Shown: in pieces, positions 1,635 through 4,612 of the stretch
Layout of the letters: each line of letters opens with the position of its first letter
Position numbering within the stretch: the stretch's first letter is position 1
Source: a virus
Reading direction: 5' to 3' (one strand)
Virus record (IMG/VR): IMGVR_UViG_3300030061_000095
Coordinates: 18,477-59,502 of that record
DNA: 41,026 nt
Position numbers and translations under genes: made by a program
Notes under the pieces: generated by a model
What the model was told of the DNA's origin: nothing
Databases searched by the model: none
Seen by the model: only the letters and a program-made list of their open reading frames with translations

Positions 1635-2009
1635 TTAAGCAAAATAACCAGTGTCAGGATATTCTATCCTGTGGTCACCCAGTTCCTCGTCATAGCTTGC
1701 ATAATCCATGTCAGCCTCATTTACTTCGTAAATTCGTGCATCCGCAAGACCACACTCACAGTCCATGTACCTCCAAAAAGGCTCATCAGCAGAGTAGCAA
1801 TCCAAGAGTTTCAAGCGCAGTCTTTCAGACTCACGCACAACTCTTGTAGCGAATCCATTGTCCTTAAGAAAGGTGTTAACCTTTCTCATGTAGTAGTCAG
1901 ACGTAACCCTGAAAGGGCTGAGCGTAACTACGTCACCTTGAACCCAAGCCACATAGCGACCATTGATTTCCATATAGCTTCCGCTATCAGTATCTTCGTA
2001 TCCAATCAT
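1635..2009 (-). CDS. Hypothetical acidic protein, 124 aa
   Basis: First gene of the minus-strand cluster, with an unknown function. The protein is acidic and tyrosine-rich, with a C-terminal run of D/E/Y residues. It has no predicted membrane segment and no motif I can name. Two ATGs lie six bases apart. The one at 2009 is better placed (GGAG seven bases upstream), whereas the one at 2015 would leave almost no spacing to the Shine-Dalgarno. It follows a leader of about 100 bases containing the hairpin at 2041-2080 and a sigma70-like promoter at 2118-2146. The same CTGGAGAA-type ribosome binding site precedes the next gene of the cluster (1157-1600). Confidence 0.7.
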   Translation of the reverse strand: MIGYEDTDSGSYMEINGRYVAWVQGDVVTLSPFRVTSDYYMRKVNTFLKDNGFATRVVRESERLRLKLLDCYSADEPFWRYMDCECGLADARIYEVNEADMDYASYDEELGDHRIEYPDTGYFA

Positions 2010-2040
2010 ATTCATTCTCCAGTTGTTGTTTGGGGGATAT

Positions 2041-2080
2041 GGTTTAAACCCCCTTCACTACGTTCAGGGGGTTTTAAACC
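2041..2080. other. Leader hairpin with GTTTAAA arms (copy 2)
   Basis: GGTTTAAACCCCC (2041-2053) pairs with GGGGGTTTTAAACC (2067-2080), with one extra T, around loop TTCACTACGTTCA. It lies between the likely promoter and the start of the first minus-strand gene. The loop and closing pair match the hairpin at 1103-1144 except for one base, while the middle of the stem has changed on both sides (CTCTCT/AGAGAG there, CCCCC/GGGGG here). Confidence 0.75.
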
Positions 2081-2117
2081 TATCCTCCTTACAGTTTCCG
2101 ATCTCTCAACATTCCGC

Positions 2118-2146
2118 ATGGTAGCGTAGGACATAATGCACGTCAA
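2118..2146 (-). promoter_or_regulatory. Sigma70-like promoter for the minus-strand cluster
   Basis: On the minus strand TTGACG (2146-2141) is followed by a 17-base spacer and TACCAT (2123-2118). This gives 5 of 6 and 4 of 6 matches to the sigma70 boxes with ideal spacing. Transcription would begin near 2111 and give a leader of about 100 bases that includes the hairpin at 2041-2080. This is a pattern match only. Confidence 0.45.
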
Positions 2147-2182
2147 CTACTGATTGAATGTGGGGTTGCCGAAGGAATCGAA

Positions 2183-2211
2183 TTGATCTAAGAACAGGTA
2201 TGATTTATCAT
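2183..2211 (+). promoter_or_regulatory. Possible promoter giving a leaderless terS mRNA
   Basis: TTGATC (2183-2188), a 17-base spacer and TATCAT (2206-2211) resemble sigma70 boxes (4 of 6 and 5 of 6). The expected start of transcription is close to 2218, the A of the first plausible ATG. That ATG has no Shine-Dalgarno, which fits leaderless initiation. The -10 box lies inside the palindrome at 2196-2215. Confidence 0.3.
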
Positions 2212-2215
2212 ACCT
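2196..2215. promoter_or_regulatory. Perfect 8-bp palindrome, candidate operator
   Basis: AGGTATGA-TTTA-TCATACCT is a perfect inverted repeat ending two bases before the ATG of the small terminase gene. It overlaps the putative -10 box, a classic place for a repressor to bind. It could also fold as an RNA hairpin if transcription starts further upstream. Confidence 0.5.
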
Positions 2216-2217
2216 CT

Positions 2218-2673
2218 ATGACAGATCAAAAGACTAAGAATCCCATAGGTACACTAAGCGTCAAAGAACGCTTATATGCTAGGTATAAGGCTCAAGGCTA
2301 TTCCAATGGCAAGAGCGCAGAACTAGCCGGATACAAGGGCGGTACAAGTGCAGATAAGCAAGGCTACAGACTGTCCAAAAAAGCTGATATAAAGGACGAG
2401 ATCGCAAGGATATTGGCAGAGCAAGAGACTAGAAGTCTCATAGACAGGGAATCCCACCTTGATGAACTGGCAAAACTAAGGGACAAAGCGGTTGATACAG
2501 GGCAGATCGGCTCAGCAGTAACTGCTGAACATTACCGAGGCAAGGTAGCTAACTTATATACCGAGAGACTAGAAGTCTCAGATGCTAATAAGGAGTCCTC
2601 CGATGAGATAATGACTCGTATCAGTAAACTGCTTGGCAAAGAACAGACCGATAAAGATTCATCTTTACACTAG
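2218..2673 (+). CDS. terS: Terminase small subunit (probable)
   Basis: A 151-residue protein directly before the large terminase. Small terminase subunits bind the packaging site on phage DNA and present it to the large subunit at the portal. Residues about 20-75 have the helix-turn-helix layout of many small terminases: an ERLYARYKAQGYS helix, the turn-like KSAELAGYKGG, then a helix through KKADIKDEIARIL. A second helical region (HLDELAKLRDKA) and a RGKVANLYTERLEV segment follow, as in other small terminases. I chose the ATG at 2218. In-frame starts at 2158 and 2200 are possible, but the latter lies inside the palindrome. Codon use and G+C resemble the minus-strand cluster more than the head genes. 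Confidence 0.72.
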   Translation: MTDQKTKNPIGTLSVKERLYARYKAQGYSNGKSAELAGYKGGTSADKQGYRLSKKADIKDEIARILAEQETRSLIDRESHLDELAKLRDKAVDTGQIGSAVTAEHYRGKVANLYTERLEVSDANKESSDEIMTRISKLLGKEQTDKDSSLH

Positions 2674-2717
2674 GGAACTGTTTAAACCTTCTCCAAACTG
2701 CGCAGGTGACGCATACC

Positions 2718-2733
2718 AATGTGTTTACACATT
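2718..2733. other. TTTA-loop dyad
   Basis: AATGTG-TTTA-CACATT is a perfect 6-bp stem with a TTTA loop. It has the same loop as the dyads at 2196-2215 and, read on the minus strand, 1618-1633. It may be a binding site for a phage regulator or a terminase recognition element. Confidence 0.45.
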
Positions 2734-2763
2734 TCCTGTGTAGGCGCGCACAGTTTTAGCGAC

Positions 2764-2784
2764 ACCCCACCCCCCCTGTACACA
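2764..2784 (+). repeat. C-rich direct repeat, copy 1
   Basis: ACCCCACCCCCCCT followed by GTACACA. Copy 2 at 2871-2890 has one C fewer and AA in place of GT. The two copies start 107 bases apart. The complementary strand is G-rich and might fold into non-canonical structures. Confidence 0.7.
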
Positions 2785-2870
2785 AGCGGGACTCCGCACA
2801 CACACATATACATACTGTTTCAAATTTTCACACAGTAAAAAATGAGTTTTATTTAACATAGTATTTACAT

Positions 2871-2890
2871 ACCCCACCCCCCTAAACACA
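2871..2890 (+). repeat. C-rich direct repeat, copy 2
   Basis: ACCCCACCCCCCT followed by AAACACA, matching copy 1 at 2764-2784. Both copies lie in the terS-terL gap and nothing similar is seen elsewhere in the window. Confidence 0.7.
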
Positions 2891-2944
2891 GATAAACGCT
2901 CTAGGTTCACATGGCTAGAAAAATTTTGCATATAATTTTGGGGA

Positions 2945-2983
2945 TAGAGGCTAATCGCGCCCAATAGATAGGATTAGCCTCTA
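2945..2983. other. 12-bp inverted repeat upstream of terL
   Basis: TAGAGGCTAATC (2945-2956) and GATTAGCCTCTA (2972-2983) are perfectly complementary around a 15-base loop. No T-run follows, so it is not an intrinsic terminator for the plus strand. Its position about 100 bases before terL suits an operator, an RNA structure in a longer transcript, or part of a packaging site. Confidence 0.7.
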
Positions 2984-3036
2984 GGGTGACTGGACAGGAT
3001 TTGTTGAGAGTGTAAGACTGTCCTCTGGAGATACCC

Positions 3037-3065
3037 TTGCACTACAGTATATAGAGTTGTAATAT
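3037..3065 (+). promoter_or_regulatory. Weak promoter-like sequence before terL
   Basis: TTGCAC (3037-3042), 17 bases, then TAATAT (3060-3065). Both boxes are imperfect (about 3 of 6 and 4 of 6). Initiation near 3072 would leave only about ten bases before the ATG at 3083, which has no Shine-Dalgarno. This would be a second nearly leaderless arrangement, like that proposed for terS. Confidence 0.2.
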
Positions 3066-3082
3066 GGTTGACAATACTACAT

Positions 3083-4612
3083 ATGGGTATATCACAGAAA
3101 CAGTTGAGAGAGGTTATGGGTCATCTTACAGATGACAATCTTGCTAGGCTTAATGGACCGCAACGTAAAGAACTAGACAACCTTATTGTTAATTTAGAGA
3201 AGGCTGTTGTTAGAGAACAGTCGCAAGATAGCTTTTTAGATTTTGCTGATTCTGTATGGCAAGAGTTTATGTGCGGTGCGCATCATAAGAAGATGGCTGA
3301 TGCCTTTGAGCGTGTAGCTAATGGTGAATGTAAACGCTTGATGATAAATATGCCTCCTAGATTTGGTAAGTCACAGTTAACATCTTGGTTACTACCGGCA
3401 TGGATAGTGGGTAGACAACCACATAAGAAGATTATCATGGCTTCACATACAGCTGAACTGTCTCTCCGGTTCGGTAGAATGGTACGTAACCTCATTGATA
3501 GCGAGGAGTATCAAGATATATTTCCGGAAGTAAGTTTAAATCTCGATTCTAAAGCAGCCGGACGATTTGATATATCGGGTGGCGGTGAATATTTTTCAAT
3601 CGGAGTTGGCGGTGCGGTGACGGGTCGTGGTGCGGATTTGTTAATTATTGATGACCCACACTCAGAACAACAAGGACAGTCTGCTGATCCAAAAATTTTC
3701 GAAAGCACCTATGATTGGTATCTGTCAGGACCGAGGCAGCGTTTGCAGCCGGGTGGTGCGATTATCATTGTTATGACTAGATGGGGTAAGAAAGACTTAT
3801 GTGGTTCTATATTGAAAGACTCTGCTACTAGAGATAATAGTGATGAGTGGGAAGTTATAGAACTACCAGCTATATTGCCATCAGGCAGAAGTCTTTGGGA
3901 AGAATACTGGAAGGTTGATGAACTTGAGAAGATTAAGGCAACTCTACCTATATCGCATTGGGAAGCGCAGTATCAACAAAACCCTGTATCGGAAGAGAGT
4001 GCCATAGTCAAACGTGAATGGTGGCAAGAATGGGAAGATAAAGAACCTCCAGCATGTGAATTCATTATTCAATCATGGGATACCGCTTTTCTAAAAACAC
4101 AACGATCTGACTATTCAGCTTGCACTACATGGGGTGTATTCTACAAAGAAGATCAGAATGGTTATTCTGCTCCACAAGTTATATTGCTTGATGCCTTTCA
4201 AGAAAGATTAGAGTTCCCTGAACTTAAACGTAGAGCATACGAAGAACATCAACAATGGATGCCAGATGCTTTTATTGTTGAGGCAAAAGCTGCCGGTTCA
4301 CCTTTGATCTTTGAATTGAGAGCAATAGGTATACCTGTACAGGAGTTTACACCTTCTAGGGGTAACGATAAGATTGCACGTGTAAACGCTGTAGCAGATT
4401 TATTTGCATCAGGTTCTGTGTGGTATCCGAAAAAAAGATGGGCAGAGGAAGTTGTAGAACAGTTTGCATCTTTTCCTGTAGGAGACCATGATGACTTAGT
4501 TGACTCATCTACACAGGCTTTGCTCAGGTTTAGACAAGGTGGATTTATAAGACTAGAAGATGATCAAGATGATTATGAAGATGTCTCTGACAGGGTTGCT
4601 AAATACTATTAA
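3083..4612 (+). CDS. terL: Terminase large subunit (packaging ATPase and nuclease)
   Basis: This 509-residue motor cuts concatemeric DNA and pumps it through the portal into the prohead. The ATPase half has a Walker A-type loop MPPRFGKS (about residues 90-97), a coupling-type S/H region (ASHTAE) and Walker B LLIIDD with D190-D191 followed by PH. The C-terminal RNase H-like nuclease is marked by spaced acidic residues in SWDTA (D333), VEAKAAG (E400) and GDHDDLVD (D470/D471). An upstream in-frame TTG at 3068 is possible. I prefer the ATG at 3083, though neither has a clear Shine-Dalgarno. The ATG at 3064 is in another frame. Length and motif order are typical. The portal gene follows after 19 bases. 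Confidence 0.95.
   Translation: MGISQKQLREVMGHLTDDNLARLNGPQRKELDNLIVNLEKAVVREQSQDSFLDFADSVWQEFMCGAHHKKMADAFERVANGECKRLMINMPPRFGKSQLTSWLLPAWIVGRQPHKKIIMASHTAELSLRFGRMVRNLIDSEEYQDIFPEVSLNLDSKAAGRFDISGGGEYFSIGVGGAVTGRGADLLIIDDPHSEQQGQSADPKIFESTYDWYLSGPRQRLQPGGAIIIVMTRWGKKDLCGSILKDSATRDNSDEWEVIELPAILPSGRSLWEEYWKVDELEKIKATLPISHWEAQYQQNPVSEESAIVKREWWQEWEDKEPPACEFIIQSWDTAFLKTQRSDYSACTTWGVFYKEDQNGYSAPQVILLDAFQERLEFPELKRRAYEEHQQWMPDAFIVEAKAAGSPLIFELRAIGIPVQEFTPSRGNDKIARVNAVADLFASGSVWYPKKRWAEEVVEQFASFPVGDHDDLVDSSTQALLRFRQGGFIRLEDDQDDYEDVSDRVAKYY

Follow-up and report, generated by a model that had tools for sequence, protein, structure and literature searches.

We find that the gap between the small (terS) and large (terL) terminase subunit genes of an uncultured marine bacteriophage is probably a composite region, with a putative packaging-initiation site in its first half and a predicted terL leader in its second half. 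We place the probability of this interpretation at roughly 0.6. The DNA analyzed (hereafter the window) is 41 kb from a 59.5-kb virus record, and its terL is 51–54% identical to those of HTVC023P, HTVC027P and phage 023Pt_psg01. Genes run leftward before position 2015 and rightward after 2158, with rightward structural genes from 3083 on; genes for an Erf-like annealing protein, an exonuclease and a primase/helicase lie in the left arm. On the minus strand, two intergenic hairpins (1116–1129 and 2053–2066) share a common loop, TGAACRTAGTGAA, and sit beside TTTAAA(C). The window end and the start of L083, both of them record ends, carry similar, non-identical stretches of one gene type that by eye reads like CsgG; curli genes are reported in such phages (excerpts of PMC9599517). 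The genes bounding the gap are:

2158 to 2673, plus strand: terS, small terminase subunit (Pfam PF03592, Terminase_2, 29.2 bits against a cut-off of 26.1; PHROG phrog_51, E 2e-11)
3083 to 4612, plus strand: terL, large terminase subunit (phrog_38, E 3e-103; start set from relatives)

The terS gene may alternatively start at ATG 2218. The TTG at 3068 reads TTT or TTA in some relatives and falls outside the terL frame in others; since it is not conserved as a start, we set the terL start at ATG 3083. With the terS stop at 2673, the gap is therefore 409 nt (2674–3082). A preliminary description had reported about 400 bases without a gene, and we likewise found no conserved gene there. A 79-aa minus-strand ORF (2725–2964) overlaps the gap, and a protein encoded in the gap was rejected since this ORF contains stops or is only partly matched beyond the closest relatives. 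Also rejected were a tRNA or attP (the tRNA search found none) and a short leader ORF before terL, whose starts and stops vary between clades as judged by eye. No Rfam family matched at gathering score within the window, and two sub-threshold eukaryotic matches fell on the minus strand of the gap. For the clade, 52 terL loci were found, 48 were analyzed and 33 had a terS match; all 33 of these relatives have a gap of 390–479 nt (29 distinct sequences, including the window).

The repeats and dyads that had been named in the gap are all present. The two C-rich repeats (ACCCCAC...), at 2764 and 2871, begin exactly 107 bases from each other; no further CCCC(0-2)CCCC doublet occurs on either strand of the 41-kb window. 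The TTTA-loop dyad (AATGTG-TTTA-CACATT, 2718–2733), the perfect 12-bp inverted repeat (2945–2956/2972–2983) and the short stem following it (GGACAG 2992–2997/CTGTCC 3018–3023) were likewise found. The first half of the gap contains a composite element, in the order C-block, GGGACTCC and then TATACATA, and is laid out as follows:

2690 to 2758, plus strand: hairpin P0 after the terS stop, containing the TTTA dyad (read by eye)
2764 to 2776, plus strand: C-block 1 of the composite element (sequence and conservation in relatives)
2788 to 2795, no strand assigned: GG box, GGGACTCC (GGAGTCCC or GGTACC in other viruses)
2807 to 2814, plus strand: TATACATA block of the composite element
2815 to 2870, no strand assigned: clade-conserved stretch CTGTTYCAAAT...TTTAACA...TTKACA
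2871 to 2882, plus strand: C-block 2, the second direct repeat

The arms of P0 vary among relatives, and the hairpin is still predicted in most (by eye, without a pair count). Conservation was gauged against fourfold-degenerate terL sites in 13 relatives, and these sites are 0.50–0.61 identical in the nine farther ones. In the same nine relatives the C-block (0.77–1.00 identical), block 2805–2870 (0.73–0.77) and the final 38 nt of the leader (3042–3079; 0.76–0.84, and 0.76–1.00 across all 13) are better kept than this baseline. Conservation of the direct repeats had been suggested earlier as a check; C-block 2 is kept in many relatives and altered to CCCCCTACCC in several.

We then examined the element in other viruses. 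At 114 terL loci (those with terL plus enough upstream DNA), the C-block, TATACATA and the GG box recurred in order in many relatives, down to ~64% terL identity, and most relatives with another gene order did not carry element blocks directly upstream of terL. In 437 control windows downstream of terL at these loci there were five C-blocks, no pair of C-blocks, no TATACATA and 12 GG boxes. Scanning 2.9 million IMG/VR viral contigs for C-block plus TATACATA, without terL as bait (pattern CCCCACCCCC-N20-50-TATACATANT), returned at least 120 stretches; the same pattern with the letters of TATACATA permuted gave 13 matches, three of which carry an element variant 585 nt before terL. From the at least 120 stretches, 80 loci among the matches listed were examined, and 73 of these 80 have a same-strand terL 255–3080 nt downstream. 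Among the matches listed, 33 of 77 loci have a GG box that precedes TATACATA by no more than 28 nt, where shuffles expect 0.7, and a CNCTCAAA-like tail after TATACATA, outside the search pattern, was conserved at up to 1.4 bits (76 loci used, 62 non-redundant, among the matches listed; loci too short around the motif left out). These two results and the fourth-block scores below exclude L186, L218 and L234, which have no terL. In L211, L230 and L198, tandem copies of a TTCCACTCGAA-like element tail recur ~20–30 nt apart.

When the window's element was compared with the four blocks, three were found in the right order and the fourth, the CNCTCAAA-like tail, was not matched; the clade-conserved stretch at 2815–2870 does not match this fourth block either. 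The window scored -7.6 and nine loci of its clade scored -12.6 to -0.5, whereas 68 other loci among the matches listed had a median of 16.6 and a single one of them fell below 2.1 (loci too short around the motif left out). We therefore regard the window as a divergent member of the element family. Of 13 records, 10 carry the element at a single place and three do not carry it. Within 3–4 kb of terL, the composite element was not found in nine annotated relatives; of these, 023Pt_psg01 carries C-blocks, and in HTVC023P TATACATA stands alone. BLAST of the element against annotated phages and plasmids, a program that masks simple C-rich DNA, returned no family member. In the literature searched, we found no description of the composite element, and the excerpts of PMC12753301, PMC12324425 and PMC9599517 do not mention it.

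The element tracks terS. To locate terS we used profiles of two TerS groups, which are themselves related in their C-terminal part (hhalign E 7e-9 over 75 columns), and found the gene beside or around the element in 72 of the 80 loci among the matches listed. In 41 of the 80, terS ends 2–181 nt before the element, and the ORFs ending directly before it form one family; in nine, terS reads through the element in frame, beyond the TerS domain; and in 22 the TerS domain follows the element. The rest comprise one stray match (L234) and seven loci without a terS match. Four of these seven have the element within 174 nt of the upstream end of the stretch, L202 is a short stretch, and L186 and L218, which also have no terL, look like chance matches. 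Of nine proteins sampled, PHROG assigned six, the window's own among them, to small terminase and gave no match for three members of the downstream group, whose name thus rests on profile match and position. Among the 41 listed loci with terS before the element, nine have terL 1.3–3.1 kb further on, behind other genes, and one has no terL within the stretch; given these distant terL genes, the element follows terS rather than the terL start.

An element in, before or after terS, in one orientation and in one copy is best read as a packaging-initiation site. A pac site is expected in or next to terS and once per genome, and the window's C-block lies 91 nt after the terS stop, with a single place for the element in the window's record. 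The preliminary description had put the gap forward as a candidate for packaging initiation, as pac or cos; pac is our preferred reading for the first half, where the element tracks terS, and cos is disfavored, as contigs run through the gap with no pile-up of ends and relatives assemble as circles. It had also counted a gene occupying this space in relatives against such a site; a gene does occur there in some relatives, and their element lies elsewhere, beside or inside terS. In the headful pac mechanism that we prefer, the small terminase would recognize the C-block, GG box and TATACATA block (~2760–2870), and the large terminase would cut the replicated concatemer near the element so that packaging starts, with later cuts made by headful termination. 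The Erf-like annealing protein and exonuclease would fit circularization of a redundant headful genome.

Known packaging sites offer partial likenesses. The pac site of P22 lies in its terS gene and is 22 bp long (excerpts of the review PMC9611059); the present element resembles it as an asymmetric DNA element in or beside terS, but is larger, multipart and recognizable across distantly related viruses, with a putative function. The pac site of SPP1 has multiple contact points flanking the cut (excerpts of PMC9611059), and by description the multipart recognition region postulated here is similar, its function again being putative. Lambda cos is likewise a terminase recognition site (excerpts of PMC9611059), but we saw no fixed ends for the present element, through which contigs run.

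Fixed staggered cuts in the gap that yield cohesive ends are disfavored, and we consider them improbable. Since cos sites too are recognized by TerS (excerpts of PMC9611059), a TerS-linked element is compatible with them, and an HNH-like gene (named by eye) directly precedes terL in some relatives. However, in 35 of 38 relatives the contig extends beyond the gap, to at least 436 nt upstream of the terL match, and no end point within the gap is common to any two of the 38 (samples of unspecified size fraction). A 58.6-kb relative also closes on itself to within ~33 nt inside terL, and 81 HTVC023P-type genomes were circularized via terminal overlaps (excerpts of PMC9599517); circular assembly is therefore seen in relatives, and end comparison found no overlap in the window's own record. 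Contig ends as cut sites were rejected, as 56 whole contigs among the matches listed (L184 left out) show no sharp peak, and the asymmetry between upstream and downstream contig ends may come from selection for hallmark genes. Among L052 (end), L053 (end) and L036 (start), two contigs end ~1 base apart at terL residue 97–98, which is probably an assembly break.

Returning to the composite reading of the gap, we see in its second half a probable structured leader of terL, one hairpin of which covaries strongly. Approximately 2895–3082 would form the 5′ leader of the terL message, in which a fast-changing hairpin (P1) and then a conserved one (P2/P3) precede the start codon:

2931 to 2936, plus strand: TATAAT, possible -10 hexamer of a terL promoter (sequence only)
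2945 to 2983, plus strand: hairpin P1, the perfect 12-bp inverted repeat (arm-pair covariation)
2984 to 3037, plus strand: helix P2 (2992–2997/3018–3023) within helix P3 (2984–2987/3033–3036)
3042 to 3082, plus strand: conserved end of the terL leader (identity over 3042–3079)

The TATAAT is not kept in relatives. The sequence of P1 is 0.23–0.40 identical in the nine farther relatives and 0.54 identical to L003 and L028, though in these two the flank (2871–2944) is 97–99% identical. Among 17 distinct arm pairs, 93% of positions paired with the own partner and 49% when partners were swapped, with arms picked by best stem, a choice that favors the own-pair figure. Folding energy of the P1 region alone was not unusual (z -1.53), so support for P1 comes from covariation rather than energy. 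Over 21 sequences, 94.8% of P2/P3 cells were paired, with two pairs changed on both sides and an A–C mismatch in P2 in eight of the 21. A P2/P3 covariance model matched strongly only in the window and L029 among 38 sources and did not find the helices in the distant relatives searched; matches at 1801–1865 on the minus strand of the window (16.8 bits) and in L043 (10.8 bits) look like chance. The inverted repeat and later stem had been assigned to the packaging site, and their covariation, pairing and conservation make it more likely that they belong to the terL mRNA leader, where they would act as RNA. Tandem hairpins in a phage message leader are familiar from the HK022 put antitermination RNAs, which the predicted gap leader resembles in this respect. 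One structured RNA across the whole gap was rejected, as its first half is conserved as DNA motifs and is coding in some viruses.

Short repeat arrays, often palindromic, lie in roughly the last 210 nt before terL in L037, L040, L041, L100, L115, L098 and L101. They are of ATCGATAGC, AGAACGTTCT and ACTTANTAAGT types, differ per phage lineage, and sit between a promoter-like TGCTAAAAT (or similar) and terL. As a candidate for the gap these arrays were rejected, being found in more distant relatives and absent from the window's clade.

The chief rival holds that the gap is a late-operon control region, in which the element would serve the terminase and structural operon as promoter or activator site, the rest would be a 5′ leader, and packaging would play no part; we judge this unlikely, if worth keeping in view. 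The switch from leftward to rightward genes between 2015 and 2158, the leader-like hairpins before terL and the TTKACA that precedes C-block 2 in the alignment all suit it, as does the fact that, among the matches listed, each of the 73 loci that have terL carries the element ahead of it on the same strand. Yet the terS frame encloses the element in nine listed loci and in 22 the TerS domain follows it; at the element itself we saw no consistent -35/-10 pair, and promoter-like sites in 1800–3600 are at chance level (six found, 4.4 expected). A packaging-initiation site, unlike a terL promoter, predicts such linkage to terS on either side, even where terL is as much as 3 kb off. GG-N10-GC is the sigma-54 promoter consensus and is contained in TGGAGATACCCTTGCA; this candidate was dropped because L029 lacks the GC and L033 the GG. 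A replication origin in the gap is very improbable. The cumulative GC skew minimum in the 1-kb bin 2001–3000 is weakly suggestive of one, but gene orientation flips in this bin, which gives the same minimum, and the linkage of the element is to terS.

A scan of bacterial and archaeal genomes also turned up a related element on 22 contigs; the titles of 12 name Gammaproteobacteria or one of its lineages. None of the 22 has terL on the scanned stretch, and the bacterial element is thus not explained by a pure packaging site. Of 23 bacterial sites, 12 score at least 10 for the viral tail, where the top 0.1% of random 18-mers reach 7.2 (scored from 40 non-redundant viral loci among the matches listed, leaving out L186, L218, L234 and loci too short). 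In the gammaproteobacterial contigs L290–L310, L324 and L325 the related element is repeated between genes on one strand. One genome (L324, L325) carries 13 copies with the C-rich upstream part on one strand over 40 kb, along with one bare TATACATA, and the arrangement is like an integron gene-cassette array.

That the element is a recombination site related to integron attC is a highly improbable reading. This same-strand array and, in another genome, related elements near a weak integron-integrase fragment speak for it; but the integron-integrase matches are below cut-off and all 14 control genomes match too, inspection by eye showed paired outer boxes in the bacterial copies but no evident ones in the viral copies, and the commonest bacterial form has no match in viral contigs. 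The bacterial relative may be a packaging signal that was copied, a regulatory site common to both or a relative of attC. We hold it as a long shot that uncultured viruses of a wide group have one packaging-signal family in common, which was also copied to integron-like cassette arrays of possible hosts; if so, phages could package and move host cassettes.

Across many distantly related viruses the composite element accompanies one and the same gene, and a packaging tag is its simplest reading. The way in which small terminases recognize their DNA site is not settled, and pac binding by TerS is called weak and hard to study in vitro (excerpts of PMC9611059). A packaging element recognizable by sequence, with its own terS alongside, would provide matched TerS–DNA pairs, and would let packaging sites be called in uncultured viruses and in elements riding on them.
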